Source: a virus
DNA: 26,388 nucleotides
IMG/VR virus record: IMGVR_UViG_3300032291_000618
Coordinates: 1-26,388 of that record
Strand: one strand, 5' to 3'
A program made the position numbers and the translations under genes. Each line of letters opens with the position of its first letter. The first letter of the stretch is position 1. The notes under the pieces are model-generated. The model was not told the origin of the DNA and made no database searches. It saw only the letters and a list, made by a program, of their open reading frames with translations. Shown piece after piece: positions 18,819-22,179 of this stretch.

Positions 18819-19427
18819 TTATCCTTTCAATGATTCAGCGTGTTTTTTAAGTGTGCTGCGTGTCTTTGAGTCAAGTAAGCTCCACACGGCTAACTTTTCC
18901 TCATTGAGTAGTGTTGTCGTTTTACCATAAGCATCCTCAATGTGTCCACCAGTAACATCGCCAATAATATCCATTGCAAGGTCTTTAATAAACTGTTGCG
19001 ATTCTTCGTCTAGTGCTTCCATTGCGCCAGCAGTAGGTGTGATTGCTTTTGGTGCTTGTACTTTGTCATCCTCTGGCACATCTTCGCCAGCAAAAATGTA
19101 TAAACCTAGACCATGTAACGCAATTGCTTTGGCTAGGCATCGTTGCATCGCTGTATTGACTGCCATGCTGTCTGGGTTAGGGATTGCCTTGTTACGATAG
19201 TCCATAACAGGTAGCTGCGATGTCATTGACTTAGAAAACGCTGTTACTGTACAGAACACCATCAAGGTTTCACCAAATCGTACTGGTTCACCATAAGACC
19301 ATGTTGCTGCTGGATCTTGCATAAGCAACTGGTCAACTGCCCATGCCCATGACAGGTAAGTAAGATTGTTTTTCTTTTCTGTATGTGCGTTTACGTTAAT
19401 TGCTCTTAATACTTGATAGTTACTCAC
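18819..19427 (-). CDS. Single-strand annealing protein, SAK3 family (DUF1071)
   Basis: 202 residues. Family motifs: NNLTYLSWAWAVDQLL (20-35), FGETLMVFCTVTAF (about 51-64), QLPVMDYRNKAIPNPDSMAVNTAMQRCLAKAIALHGLGLYIFAGED (about 71-116, quoted in parts elsewhere). SAK3-type proteins anneal complementary strands in phage recombination, typically with a cognate SSB, which is present in this operon. The start is GTG at 19427 with GGAG 6 nt before it. C-terminal ~70 residues are an acidic/helical tail. No exonuclease partner of the lambda Exo type is seen nearby. Confidence 0.85.
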   Translation of the reverse strand: MSNYQVLRAINVNAHTEKKNNLTYLSWAWAVDQLLMQDPAATWSYGEPVRFGETLMVFCTVTAFSKSMTSQLPVMDYRNKAIPNPDSMAVNTAMQRCLAKAIALHGLGLYIFAGEDVPEDDKVQAPKAITPTAGAMEALDEESQQFIKDLAMDIIGDVTGGHIEDAYGKTTTLLNEEKLAVWSLLDSKTRSTLKKHAESLKG

Positions 19428-19436
19428 TCTGTTCTC

Positions 19437-19658
19437 CTAGTTAAAAATAATATCTTTATTGTCAAAAGATTCTACAACCCAATCCACAAAGTTATCACCA
19501 AAGTTTTCTAGCATCCACTCTTCGTTATGTGCTTTAGGCTCTGTGTCTAACATATGATCCCAGAACTGTTCTCCATATTTATCTTCCATCGCATCCCAGT
19601 CAATAGAATCAATAAAACGCTCTAGATCAAATTCTGCTTGAAACTGTTGCTCGTTCAT
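19437..19658 (-). CDS. Very acidic protein, 73 aa, unknown
   Basis: Start at 19658 is set by an ATGA overlap with the small membrane gene upstream. The protein is rich in Asp/Glu/Trp/Phe (FDLERFIDSIDWDAMEDKYG, FWDHMLDTEP, WVVESFDN) and has few Lys/Arg, so it may be a DNA mimic or bind a basic partner. Phage early operons often carry such acidic inhibitors of host or defence proteins; this is only a hypothesis here. No family recognised. Confidence 0.6.
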   Translation of the reverse strand: MNEQQFQAEFDLERFIDSIDWDAMEDKYGEQFWDHMLDTEPKAHNEEWMLENFGDNFVDWVVESFDNKDIIFN

Positions 19659-19753
19659 TCCCATCCCCTCACTTTAGCTATTATACCAGTTACTACAAAT
19701 ATGGCACAAATTATTGCACCACCTATACAAAGTATTAATAAATTATCTAGCAT
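19655..19753 (-). CDS. 32-aa single-pass membrane peptide
   Basis: GGAG lies 6 nt before the ATG at 19753 (a first ATG at 19756 is closer to it and less likely). One hydrophobic helix, LLILCIGGAIICAIFVVTGIIA, then KVRGWE. It begins within ten nt of the upstream stop and ends in an ATGA overlap with the acidic protein, so it fits the operon precisely. Function unknown; positive-inside rule suggests the C-terminus is cytoplasmic. Confidence 0.6.
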   Translation of the reverse strand: MLDNLLILCIGGAIICAIFVVTGIIAKVRGWE

Positions 19754-19762
19754 CATTATCTC

Positions 19763-20086
19763 CTATTCGTTACTGTAACCAAGTTTTTGATTCTCACGAT
19801 ACTGTGCATCGCTACAAGCAATACTGTGAGCCAACTCTTCTGTGTATCCAGCAGCTAGGTATCTATCCTTGTCTGCTGCAAACAATCTTTTGTACTCTTT
19901 TAACTCTGCTGCATCATTGTCAGCCTTAAGTTCATCTGTAGCTGCACGAAGGATCTCACGAATAGCTTTTAGCTCTTCTTTGATACGTTTATCTTCTGCA
20001 TCACGAGCTGCGCAAAATGCAATTATGTCAGCTTTACGTTCTGCAATTTTTTCTGGTGTATTAAAGTGTGCTTCGTAATCAAACAT
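19763..20086 (-). CDS. Coiled-coil early protein, 107 aa
   Basis: First gene of the leftward early operon, with GGAG before ATG 20086. Mostly alpha-helical with a heptad-like charged core (RDAEDKRIKEELKAIREIL, TDELKADNDAAELKEYKRLF, about 28-70). No DNA-binding motif. Being promoter-proximal suggests very early expression, as for host-takeover proteins; that role is inferred. Confidence 0.65.
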   Translation of the reverse strand: MFDYEAHFNTPEKIAERKADIIAFCAARDAEDKRIKEELKAIREILRAATDELKADNDAAELKEYKRLFAADKDRYLAAGYTEELAHSIACSDAQYRENQKLGYSNE

Positions 20087-20124
20087 TTTCTTCTCCTGTG
20101 TTAATATTGTGTTGCGATGTAGTA

Positions 20125-20152
20125 ACTATACTCTCATAAAAAAGTATTGCAA
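20125..20152 (-). promoter_or_regulatory. Sigma-70-like promoter of leftward early operon
   Basis: On the minus strand: TTGCAA (-35, 20152-20147), 16-bp spacer, TATAGT (-10, 20130-20125). It is followed by a ~30-nt leader to ATG 20086. On the plus strand the same segment holds TATACT (20127-20132), so a divergent rightward promoter for the DUF1064 gene is possible but weaker. Confidence 0.7.
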
Positions 20153-20178
20153 CTATTTTTAACTTTTTGGATAAGTCT

Positions 20179-20514
20179 ATGAAACGTAACAAGTTTAATG
20201 CTGTAAAAACTACAATTGATGGCATAAAATTTCACTCAAAAAAAGAAAGTGTGCGTTATAGCCAGCTAAAACTCTATGAGAAAGGTGGATTGATTACTGA
20301 TCTGCGCTTGCAAGTTCCATATGAGTTGATCCCGAAACTGGTGATTAATGGCAAGACTGAACGTGCTATCAAATACATTGCAGACTTTGTATATTACGAC
20401 ACAGTACATAAGGTAGAGATTTGCGAGGACTGCAAAGGATTTGTAACTGATATTTTTAAATTGAAATACAGGCTAATGAAAATGACTTATGGTATTGACA
20501 TCAAGATCACTTAG
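20179..20514 (+). CDS. DUF1064 family PD-(D/E)xK-like nuclease
   Basis: 111 residues from ATG 20179; a TTG at 20167 is less likely. DUF1064 features: KFNAVKTTIDGIKFHSKKE (5-23, ending in the conserved Glu23), LRLQVPYELIP (42-52), YIADFVY (Asp69) and EDCKGF (Asp84-x-Lys86), ending LFK-like FKLKYRLMKMTYG. The arrangement suggests a PD-(D/E)xK nuclease fold related to small phage resolvase/endonucleases. Sits at the head of the rightward early genes next to replication functions; likely acts in recombination-dependent replication. Confidence 0.72.
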   Translation: MKRNKFNAVKTTIDGIKFHSKKESVRYSQLKLYEKGGLITDLRLQVPYELIPKLVINGKTERAIKYIADFVYYDTVHKVEICEDCKGFVTDIFKLKYRLMKMTYGIDIKIT

Positions 20515-20523
20515 GAGTATATT
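20495..20523 (+). promoter_or_regulatory. Consensus sigma-70 promoter for a structured RNA
   Basis: TTGACA (20495-20500, perfect -35), 17-bp spacer, TATATT (20518-20523, -10). It overlaps the last codons and stop of the DUF1064 gene. The predicted start is near 20530, immediately before the first hairpin of the RNA feature. Confidence 0.75.
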
Positions 20524-20529
20524 AACGAC

Positions 20530-20637
20530 AAATCGCTTGGAGGCGATACTGAGTAAGCCTTAGTCAACACTCTGCTGGTACTCACCAGTCCTCCAACTTC
20601 CCTAAAAAGGATGAGAGTGTTGTCTAGGGCTTTTTTT
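20530..20637 (+). ncRNA. ~108-nt structured RNA or attenuator leader
   Basis: Runs from the consensus promoter to an intrinsic terminator. Hairpin 1: ATCGC (20532-20536) / GCGAT (20543-20547), loop TTGGAG. Long stem: 20555-20572 with 20615-20632, 17 of 18 positions paired including one G-U. Inside it, CTGGT (20575-20579) / ACCAG (20584-20588). The unpaired CTCCAA at 20591-20596 is the exact complement of the hairpin 1 loop, so a pseudoknot is possible. The replication-initiator ATG lies 13 nt after the T-run, leaving no room for another promoter. It is therefore either a free small RNA or the regulated leader of that gene. I cannot match it to a known RNA class. Confidence 0.7.
20555..20637 (+). 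terminator. Intrinsic terminator before the replication gene
   Basis: Long stem 20555-20572/20615-20632 with a branched apical part, followed by seven T residues (20631-20637). It would stop transcripts from both the DUF1064 region and the 20495 promoter unless read through. Confidence 0.8.
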
Positions 20638-20650
20638 ATGGAGTTTTAAC

Positions 20651-21340
20651 ATGGCTGAACGTAGAATGTTTGCAAAGACCATCATTGATAGTGATGCGTT
20701 TTTAGATATGCCCTTATCAACACAGGCTCTTTATTTTCACTTGTCAATGAGAGCTGACGATGATGGGTTCATTAATAACACTAAGAAGATTCAAAGGATG
20801 CTGGGTTGCGCTGATGATGATCTGAAGATACTACTATCCAAGAATTTCATCATTCCATTTGAAACTGGTGTGTGCGTTATCAAGCATTGGAAGATACATA
20901 ACTTGATTCAAAAGGATAGATACAAACCTAGCGTATATGGTGAAGAGAAAGAAAAGTTATCTATTAAAAACAACAATGTTTACACTCTGGATACAGGTTG
21001 TGTACAGGATGTATCCAGTTTGGAATCACAGGTTAGTATAGGTAAGGCTAGTTTAGTCAAGGATAGAAAACCATCTCGTGCTGTCGCACTCGTGAATGAG
21101 TATGTAGATGATGGATTTAATCAGTTCTGGGAAGTGTATCCAAAGAAAGTAGGAAGGGATGCAGCACTAAAGTCTTGGGAAAAGGTTAAGCCACCTATTG
21201 ACGATGTTATCTACTCACTAGCATGGCAGAAGCAAACCGAGCAATGGAGTAAGAACAATGGTCAATTCATACCTAACCCATCTACCTACTTGAATCAAGG
21301 TCGTTGGAAGGATGAAGCACCAGTAGAGGAGTTATGGTAA
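20651..21340 (+). CDS. Replication initiator / replisome-organiser protein
   Basis: 229 residues with GGAG 7 nt upstream. The N-terminal part (1-100) is a winged-helix replisome-organiser domain (RRMFAKTIIDSDAFLDMPLS, ALYFHLSMRADDDGF, KKIQRMLG, VCVIKHWKIHNLIQKDRY). A variable linker follows, then a C-terminal domain FNQFWEVYPKKVGRDAALKSWEKV (about 157-180) and FIPNPSTYLNQGRWKDE, typical of phage O-like replication proteins. It would bind the origin and recruit the helicase-loading machinery. Transcription must cross the terminator at 20555-20637. Its 3' end overlaps the PP-loop gene as TAATG. Confidence 0.8.
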   Translation: MAERRMFAKTIIDSDAFLDMPLSTQALYFHLSMRADDDGFINNTKKIQRMLGCADDDLKILLSKNFIIPFETGVCVIKHWKIHNLIQKDRYKPSVYGEEKEKLSIKNNNVYTLDTGCVQDVSSLESQVSIGKASLVKDRKPSRAVALVNEYVDDGFNQFWEVYPKKVGRDAALKSWEKVKPPIDDVIYSLAWQKQTEQWSKNNGQFIPNPSTYLNQGRWKDEAPVEELW

Positions 21341-22179
21341 TGAATCCATATTTAATTACAGAGCCAACATTTATTAGCTTTAGTGGTGGCAGGACATCTG
21401 GCTATATGCTTCACAAAGTATTAGAGGCGCATGGTGGCAAGTTGCCTAAAGAAGCAATGGTGGTATTTGCTAACACAGGGAAAGAAGAAGAGGCTACATT
21501 AAAGTTTGTTAATGACTGCGCTATTAATTGGAATGTTGATATCACATGGTTAGAGTTTAAGGATAATGAACAGAAGTTTGAGATTGTTAATTATGAAACA
21601 GCTAGTCGCAATGGTGAACCATTTGAAGCATTAATTGTTAAACGCAAGTTTTTACCAAACCCAGTTAGCAGATTTTGTACGGCAGAGTTAAAAATTAAGA
21701 CCATGCAAAGATATGCAAAGTCAATTGGGCTTGAGTCTGTAATTAACATGATTGGAATTAGAGCAGATGAGCAAAGAAGATTAGCAAAAGTTTCTAATAA
21801 TTATGATGGTAAATATGGTGAGAAAGTTGCGCCATTGGGAAGCGATGGAGTAACTAAAGAAATTGTTGGTAACTTTTGGAAGGCTCAGACATTTGATTTA
21901 GGTCTTTATAATAACAATGGCACTACTATGCATGGCAACTGTGACCTATGTTTTCTTAAAGGTGGCAATCAAGTTCAATCTCTTATTGCAGAGAAGCCAG
22001 ATCGTGCGTTATGGTGGGCTAAGATGGAAACGATGGTACAAACTTCAAACCTGTCCTTTGGTGGGGGGGGCAGGTTTAGGAAAGACAGACCAAGTTACCA
22101 ACAGATGTATGACAATGCACATAACCAAAAGACAATAGATTTTGTAGACGAGTCTATTGGATGCTTCTGCGGAGATTGA
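21340..22179 (+). CDS. PAPS-reductase-like PP-loop protein
   Basis: 279 residues from ATG 21340 (AGGAG 8 nt upstream; ATG 21334 is too close to it). SGGRTSG (15-21) is the PP-loop that binds ATP or PAPS; VVFANTGKEEEATLKFV (about 42-58) and the FCTAELKIKTM segment are further family motifs. C-terminal Cys pairs (GNCDLCFLKGG and CFCGD at the very end) suggest a metal site. Phages often carry this family among replication genes; it may be a nucleotide or DNA/RNA sulfur-modifying enzyme rather than a sulfate-assimilation reductase. A run of eight G at 22063-22070 lies in the GGGGRF motif without breaking the frame. Confidence 0.75.
   Translation: MNPYLITEPTFISFSGGRTSGYMLHKVLEAHGGKLPKEAMVVFANTGKEEEATLKFVNDCAINWNVDITWLEFKDNEQKFEIVNYETASRNGEPFEALIVKRKFLPNPVSRFCTAELKIKTMQRYAKSIGLESVINMIGIRADEQRRLAKVSNNYDGKYGEKVAPLGSDGVTKEIVGNFWKAQTFDLGLYNNNGTTMHGNCDLCFLKGGNQVQSLIAEKPDRALWWAKMETMVQTSNLSFGGGGRFRKDRPSYQQMYDNAHNQKTIDFVDESIGCFCGD

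Follow-up and report, generated by a model that had tools for sequence, protein, structure and literature searches.

Protein regulators are the usual explanation of the onset of phage replication. The lambda OOP RNA adjoins the replication genes and has a terminator, and in plasmids the pseudoknots PK-repZ and PK-repBA act on the translation of the initiator. Among the described RNAs, the excerpts of PMC12197685 present OOP as having its own promoter and as antisense to cII, and those of PMC9378689 present the putL RNA, which starts right at the promoter, ahead of the operon, and the put nascent RNA, which binds the beta' zinc-binding domain and thereby leads to read-through. A riboswitch or attenuator candidate, in which the terminator stem-loop may pair with a preceding hairpin and so prevent termination, is outlined in the excerpted text of PMC11109978. 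Here, we report on a structured RNA of about 107 nt, designated family A, no apparent description of which was found in the open-licence literature searched, including the excerpted text of PMC9378689, PMC11109978, PMC12370729 and PMC12197685.

The window, i.e., the whole stretch of DNA analysed, is the 26,388-base IMG/VR virus record IMGVR_UViG_3300032291_000618. The family A RNA lies on its plus strand at 20531-20637, as delimited by the covariance model R1 and by covariation; R1 matches 20531-20636 with 118 bits, the window itself being among the sequences from which R1 was built, and model matches on the opposite strand are weak (20-23 bits). A plus-strand gene of the DUF1064/Holliday junction resolvase family (20179-20514) is located on the 5' side of the RNA. 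On the 3' side are the gene for a DnaD-like helicase loader/replication initiator (20651-21340, plus strand; phrog_8489, E 2.4e-75) and, immediately 3' of the loader, a PAPS-reductase-type gene (21334-22179). The RNA is thereby placed beside replication genes, near the point where two gene blocks diverge. The initial annotation of this DNA had proposed a discrete structured RNA, adjacent to a replication initiator and equipped with a promoter and a terminator, and this proposal is strongly supported by covariation, promoter placement and synteny. The expected sigma-70-type promoter is found at 20495-20523 on the plus strand as a motif match whose placement is conserved in homologues: the -35 hexamer TTGACA (20495-20500), which falls within the 3' end of the upstream gene, is followed by a 17-nt spacer and the -10 hexamer TATATT (20518-20523). 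This site scores 11/12 and is the top promoter-like match in 19000-22000, and no second promoter-like site is listed on the plus strand of that region. Since promoter-like matches overall are no more common there than in shuffled sequences (7 vs 9.7), the promoter match alone proves little. Transcription probably starts at about 20530, and the transcript would end at the T-run (20631-20637, plus strand) of a putative intrinsic terminator. The T-run has at least five T in the homologues listed, which is partly built in, as their ends were set at the T-run. The terminator is missing from the list of our terminator scan because the scan allows loops of 3-8 only. The high degree of pairing that had been predicted is also reflected in the folding energy, which is -42.1 kcal/mol compared with a shuffled mean of -25.2 (z -4.96; none of 200 shuffles as low).

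The fold was compared in two samples of homologues. Sample A1 contains 47 distinct family A sequences (50 distinct ones minus L001, L111 and L129), and sample A3 contains 34 chosen, more diverse sequences, 12 of which were found by R1 in neighbouring-protein loci; A3 takes in three members of 58-61% GC, obtained via neighbouring proteins. All elements of the fold are on the plus strand. The hairpin P1 (ATCGC-TTGGAG-GCGAT; 20532-20547), which had been expected at the predicted start, pairs 20532-20536 with 20543-20547 around the loop TTGGAG; in A3, the four inner pairs of P1 are formed in 98.5% of cells. The closing helix P2 (20555-20632) is at the same time the terminator stem and pairs 20555-20572 with 20615-20632; as paired by hand from the sequence, 17 of its 18 positions are paired in the window, including one T-G, with one T.T mismatch, as the initial annotation had it. 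The hairpin P3 (20575-20588) pairs 20575-20578 with 20585-20588, and its cells are paired in 79.3% of cases in A1 and 88.5% in A3. The hairpin P4 (20598-20612), identified by covariation, has an A-rich loop and is 98.0% paired over three pairs in A3, the outermost pair being T.T in the window. In L333, L337 and L025 the A-rich loop is replaced by short loops (such as GCAA, ACCA or GAAA), which indicates that the sequence of the P4 loop is not essential to the fold. The strand lengths of P2 are fixed in A3 (5' strand of 19 nt in 33 of 34 sequences, 3' strand of 18 nt in all 34), whereas the P4 region ranges in length between 12 and 17 nt. This would point to a geometric constraint that a plain terminator does not need; a fixed length is equally compatible with a rigid object and with a switch. 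As a separate observation, the terminator stem of a family A copy at L001:287-380 is about 12 nt short on its 5' strand; the L001 loader is 97% identical to that of the window, and the short copy may be a natural variant or an assembly error.

Two pseudoknots, which like the fourth hairpin were absent from the initial annotation, complete the predicted fold. In PK1 (20537-20596), the P1 loop (20537-20542) pairs with 20591-20596, inside the terminator stem. Its cells are paired in 98.6% of cases, with 45 double-change cells compared with 10.6 in shuffles, and its two central pairs form a standard pair in all 47 sequences of A1, with three pair types each. The central letters were free in the search patterns for 41 of these 47 rows, and the other six (L002-L005, L009 and L014) were chosen by a regular expression that fixed them; the P1 letters and the PK1 flanks formed part of the scan pattern. 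In the PK1 test, shuffles reached three both-side-changed pairs in 48 of 500 cases and the observed 'further pair types' in 500 of 500. In PK2 (20550-20584), the junction 20550-20555 pairs with the P3 loop (20579-20584), and position 20555 is able to pair in either PK2 or P2. PK2 was absent from the scan pattern. MAFFT misregisters PK2 and P3 in some subtypes, PK2 being 81.7% paired in A1, and PK2 was therefore also tested by partner swapping and over its three central pairs. The mean longest complement was 5.76 nt with matched partners compared with 3.92 +/- 0.15 with swapped ones (38 distinct combinations, 2000 swaps, swapped maximum 4.5), and the weak rows among the 47 were L157 with three Watson-Crick pairs and L027, L106 and L128 with four. 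Both predicted pseudoknots are supported individually. Over the whole structure, 90.3% of cells pair in A1 compared with 73.8% in shuffles, and 281 cells show double changes compared with 83. In A3, 95.8% of 1183 pair cells are canonical, compared with 71.7% in shuffled controls, which ignore relatedness, and 32-46% in slid controls, which keep it, and changes on both sides are found in 29 of 35 pairs. The 'further pair types' are not above shuffles in A1, where 422 of 500 shuffles reach the observed value, and are reached by 10 of 500 in A3. The compensatory changes by which the initial annotation had proposed to check the RNA in homologues are thus present in A1, A3, PK1 and PK2, and on this comparative evidence family A constitutes a new RNA family with a conserved, doubly pseudoknotted fold.

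Family A was seen solely in uncultured viral contigs within the collections searched. A protein search with the loader provided the best 80 related loci, and many of the 50 upstream regions inspected show a family A RNA with matched changes. A degenerate pattern, in which the two central letters of PK1 and their partners were free, matched 90 stretches in viral contigs, 82 of which R1 scores as family A; the eight false matches (L082, L101, L105, L127, L141, L155, L159 and L163) were left out. In 84,980 species genomes (257 Gb), the pattern gave 10 matches, none of them genuine and none found by R1, and the exact-pattern scan therefore points to no prophage home or host. None of the 4227 families of Rfam 15 matched anywhere in the window at the gathering score, and up to E 10 the region 20450-20700 gave just a 13-nt minus-strand match to a viral splice-donor model (E 0.5). 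When cultured phages were searched with DNA, the window had two matches at E 0.8, and L018 and L083 had none; one structural protein that was tried gave weak matches only, to Caulobacter and Sinorhizobium phages. Neither R1 nor R2 matched the related-initiator loci of eight named phages at E <=1 (301 nt upstream in the case of L374), where covariance-model E-values rest on a shortened calibration, and these loci gave no Rfam match at the gathering score. In the named phages L373, L375 and L377, a small DNA-binding regulator gene is annotated close upstream of the initiator, in the position that the RNA takes in the window.

The placement of the RNA between a promoter and an initiator is also found in its relatives. 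For promoter comparison, 53 deduplicated upstream sequences (38 of family A and 15 of the family B described below) of 70 nt each were used, with the letter two bases inside P1 as the RNA anchor for family A. The -10 element of the best sigma-70 match ends 6-12 nt upstream of the anchor in 40 of the 53; the spacer of these matches is mostly 17 nt, and many score just 7-8 of 12. A match of at least 9/12 occurs anywhere in the 70 nt in 51% of sequences compared with 16% in shuffles, and one with the -10 ending 4-16 nt upstream in 40% compared with 4% (maximum 11%). In L084, L090, L116 and L125, the best promoter match is 24-27 nt upstream of the RNA, and a small additional hairpin (ACGAA...TTCGT) lies between it and P1. 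Synteny was assessed in 139 loci of families A and B with a recognisable 3' end, with duplicated contigs counted, 137 of which have a downstream ORF. A gene of replication-initiator type is directly downstream in 107 of the 137, 106 of them from one BLASTP cluster, plus L153; the initiator N-termini are of several types, and PHROG identity was checked for the window, L187 and L153. Within that BLASTP cluster, 9-19 nt separate the T-run from the ATG. In the other 30 loci, the first gene encodes a homing endonuclease, DNA methyltransferase, helicase or small ORF; an initiator motif follows 298-1271 nt past the RNA start in 19 of them, and none was found in 11 with three motifs, which miss several initiator types. 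HNH-type and endonuclease-like or unassigned genes (GIY-YIG-like by eye) separate the RNA from the next gene in L083, L107, L093, L147 and L033, and there the intervening gene leaves the RNA together with its promoter. By our own ORF rules, 14 of 132 loci have an upstream gene that points the other way, which makes the promoter of the RNA the natural one for the operon. Because there is no room for a promoter between the T-run and the start codon, a point that the initial annotation had not included, and none is found on the plus strand within the RNA, the anatomy implies that the initiator mRNA would have to cross the terminator. Taken as a whole, the comparison shows a promoter-like signal at the foot of P1, a closing helix that is a terminator-like stem, and an initiator that is usually next.

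Alternative RNA families in the same place, also absent from the initial annotation, were found in related loci. Family B is a second, unrelated pseudoknotted RNA that occupies the family A slot; the loop of its long 5' hairpin kisses the loop of the terminator hairpin through a predicted 7-bp kissing interaction. Its examples (sample A2) include L007:2384-2487, L030:2379-2482 and L023:2381-2482, among others; L186, L196 and L202, which are unlike the family, and L209, which is cut, were left out. In 18 distinct sequences, 95.5% of cells are paired compared with 89.2% in shuffles, and there are 31 double-change cells compared with 6.4, many single double-changes coming from the divergent L023 and L030. 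No Rfam match was obtained for the four family B loci scanned (L007, L011, L023 and L030). R1 on family B loci and R2 on family A loci likewise gave no match at E <=1 (window and 80 loci). In three protein-based searches, family A was present in 68 of 240 loci (20, 22 and 26 of the best 80 each) and family B in 29 of 240 (12, 12 and 5 of the best 80 each), and the two occurred together in none of the 240, some contigs recurring between searches. The 31 whole records chosen for holding A or B contain one A in 22 cases and one B in nine, and none contains both; the lone weak extra match among them is the antisense of the same place. Particularly, L006 (family A) and L007 (family B) have an identity of 93.5% across 248 nt upstream and of 98% in the initial 300 nt of the loader gene, whereas their RNAs are 58.3% identical, which is the shuffled level (mean 57.6%).

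A third RNA in the slot is int-alpA (RF02996), reportedly described in Weinberg 2017, which Rfam files as 'Gene; sRNA'. At the gathering score, it was found directly upstream of the initiator in five of 40 hand-chosen, non-random loci (L019:2403-2484, L328:1409-1477, L345:1411-1477, L343:1411-1478 and L344:1406-1484), a position before replication initiators in addition to the one between int and alpA implied by its name. Its covariance model has no match in the window and none for 20450-20700 up to E 10. An uncalibrated int-alpA motif matched 2 of 80 loci in the first search, 1 of 80 in the second and 20 of 80 in the third, and once elsewhere in L088. At L025:706-910, one operon is preceded by a family A RNA in tandem with a match to an int-alpA-like motif, so that the slot is not strictly single-RNA once int-alpA is counted. 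Like family A, int-alpA is a short structured RNA with a long-range closing helix and the slot upstream of the initiator, but its sequence and fold differ, and most int-alpA copies listed are without a run of six T. We tentatively suggest, at somewhat less than even probability, that in a large group of uncultured phages the slot is filled by one of at least three unrelated RNAs (A, B and int-alpA), each of which would start at the operon promoter, and that these are swapped as cassettes and perform one job, namely gating the transcription of the replication genes via a target common to them all, for instance RNA polymerase or an RNA-binding protein of the host.

The mechanism that we consider best, with slightly better than even confidence, is that family A is a terminator-ended leader RNA which heads the phage replication operon and gates the expression of the replication genes. 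From the operon promoter, transcripts would begin at the foot of P1. Most of them would end at the terminator, setting free a stable RNA of about 107 nt, and the initiator would be expressed only from those that cross it. The pseudoknotted body may be the part that a factor acting in trans recognises, be it RNA polymerase or a protein of the host or the phage, and the RNA would in this way gate replication-gene expression. The covariation, promoter placement and synteny described above support this reading, and so does family B, which would be equivalent in function, through the same slot, one RNA per record and the clean swap. We count against it that the P2 strands are of fixed length, that another gene comes first in 30 of the 137 loci and that no antiterminator helix with covariation support was found in the column-pair scans of A1 or A3. 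In A1, 13 column pairs within the structure and 49 beyond it are at least 90% canonical with at least three double changes; the corresponding counts in A3 are 24 and 13. Those outside include two two-pair stacks in A1 and none in A3. Beyond the structure, A1 has 14 helices with at least three pairs at 90% canonical and A3 has 11, and the 11 in A3, mostly an A-run or purines against a T-run, contain no double changes. A recurrent alternative helix, low in complexity, joins the A-rich P4 loop with the T-run, and the P4 loops GCAA (L333) and GAAA (L025) have no A-run for such pairing. A competition between pseudoknot and stem at the terminator is possible. As no antiterminator helix with such support was found, a classical self-contained attenuator is not supported and a simple two-state one is less likely. 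Three routes are left: a factor that acts in trans at the terminator, put-like polymerase binding, or a released RNA acting in trans. The attenuator suggested in the initial annotation is possible and is our leading reading, although no covariation-supported helix competing with the terminator was found in A1 or A3.

Several other explanations have to be weighed against the leader RNA. Somewhat unlikely, in our view, is a trans-acting phage small RNA, for which the released RNA is the product, e.g., by binding a host protein, and the operon-head position is merely where early transcription begins. The strong predicted terminator kept in the homologues listed, the compact and almost wholly structured body with its fixed P2 length, the persistence of the RNA with other genes between it and the initiator, and the Rfam filing of the slot-sharing int-alpA would all fit such a product. 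However, a free RNA does not need a fixed place before initiators of several N-terminal types, and an antisense mode would be without a conserved unpaired seed. An antisense RNA had also been suggested in the initial annotation, and this suggestion is not supported by the locus: the RNA is on the same strand as the gene, its variable loops have internal partners and no conserved free seed is visible. A cis-encoded antisense RNA was rejected, as promoter and terminator share their strand with the initiator. It is improbable that the RNA is a put-like element, the nascent form of which would bind RNA polymerase and make it resist pausing and termination, including at its own terminator. Family A resembles putL, as excerpted in PMC9378689, in being a short folded RNA that starts at the promoter ahead of the operon, and several unrelated folds in one slot would fit a generic target such as RNA polymerase; against this, family A ends in a predicted intrinsic terminator of its own, and the put of that excerpt consists of two stem-loops in about 70 nt.

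An origin element, in which a transcript or a structured DNA strand would prime or mark replication beside the loader, seems very improbable. The site is beside the replication genes, near the divergence of the two gene blocks, and lambda OOP was formerly believed to be a primer, but OOP was later found not to prime according to the excerpted text of PMC12197685, and the placement of promoter and terminator indicates transcription. The region 20090-21340 contains just two 2-copy repeats of 11-12 nt, and the iteron/origin model was rejected because this region has no repeat cluster. That the structure is due to chance, or that this is an ordinary terminator with no other role, is almost certainly wrong. 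Any strong terminator folds well, but here all helices and both pseudoknots covary, by which this explanation is refuted, and family A accounts for 82 of the 90 pattern matches in viral contigs compared with none of the 10 in genome contigs.

In conclusion, a conserved, doubly pseudoknotted RNA sits between a promoter and a replication initiator in uncultured phages, and an unrelated RNA replaces it in near-identical genomes. If the gating proposed here is true, this would be a hitherto unrecognised RNA-level control point of phage replication. These RNAs would also be a naturally occurring collection of exchangeable devices coupled to a terminator, and would offer a clue to what the orphan int-alpA RNA does.

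Compared with the known systems, family A has both shared and distinct features. Like PK-repZ and PK-repBA, its pseudoknots lie 5' of a replication initiator gene; family A is without any Rfam match. It shares with lambda OOP the features of a small phage RNA with its own promoter beside replication genes, but unlike the antisense OOP it reads in the same direction as the genes of the operon, and the partners of its loops lie within the RNA. Both HK022 put and family A are structured RNAs that open an early phage transcript; compared by description from the excerpts of PMC9378689, put has two stem-loops in about 70 nt, whereas family A, at about 107 nt, comprises four helices and two pseudoknots and ends in a terminator of its own. 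As in a self-contained attenuator or riboswitch, a predicted intrinsic terminator precedes the start codon in family A. The candidate motif in the excerpted text of PMC11109978 belongs to a bacterial metabolic gene, not a phage, and its sequences were compared through Rfam only, but its topology is shared by both PK1 of family A and the kissing loop of family B.
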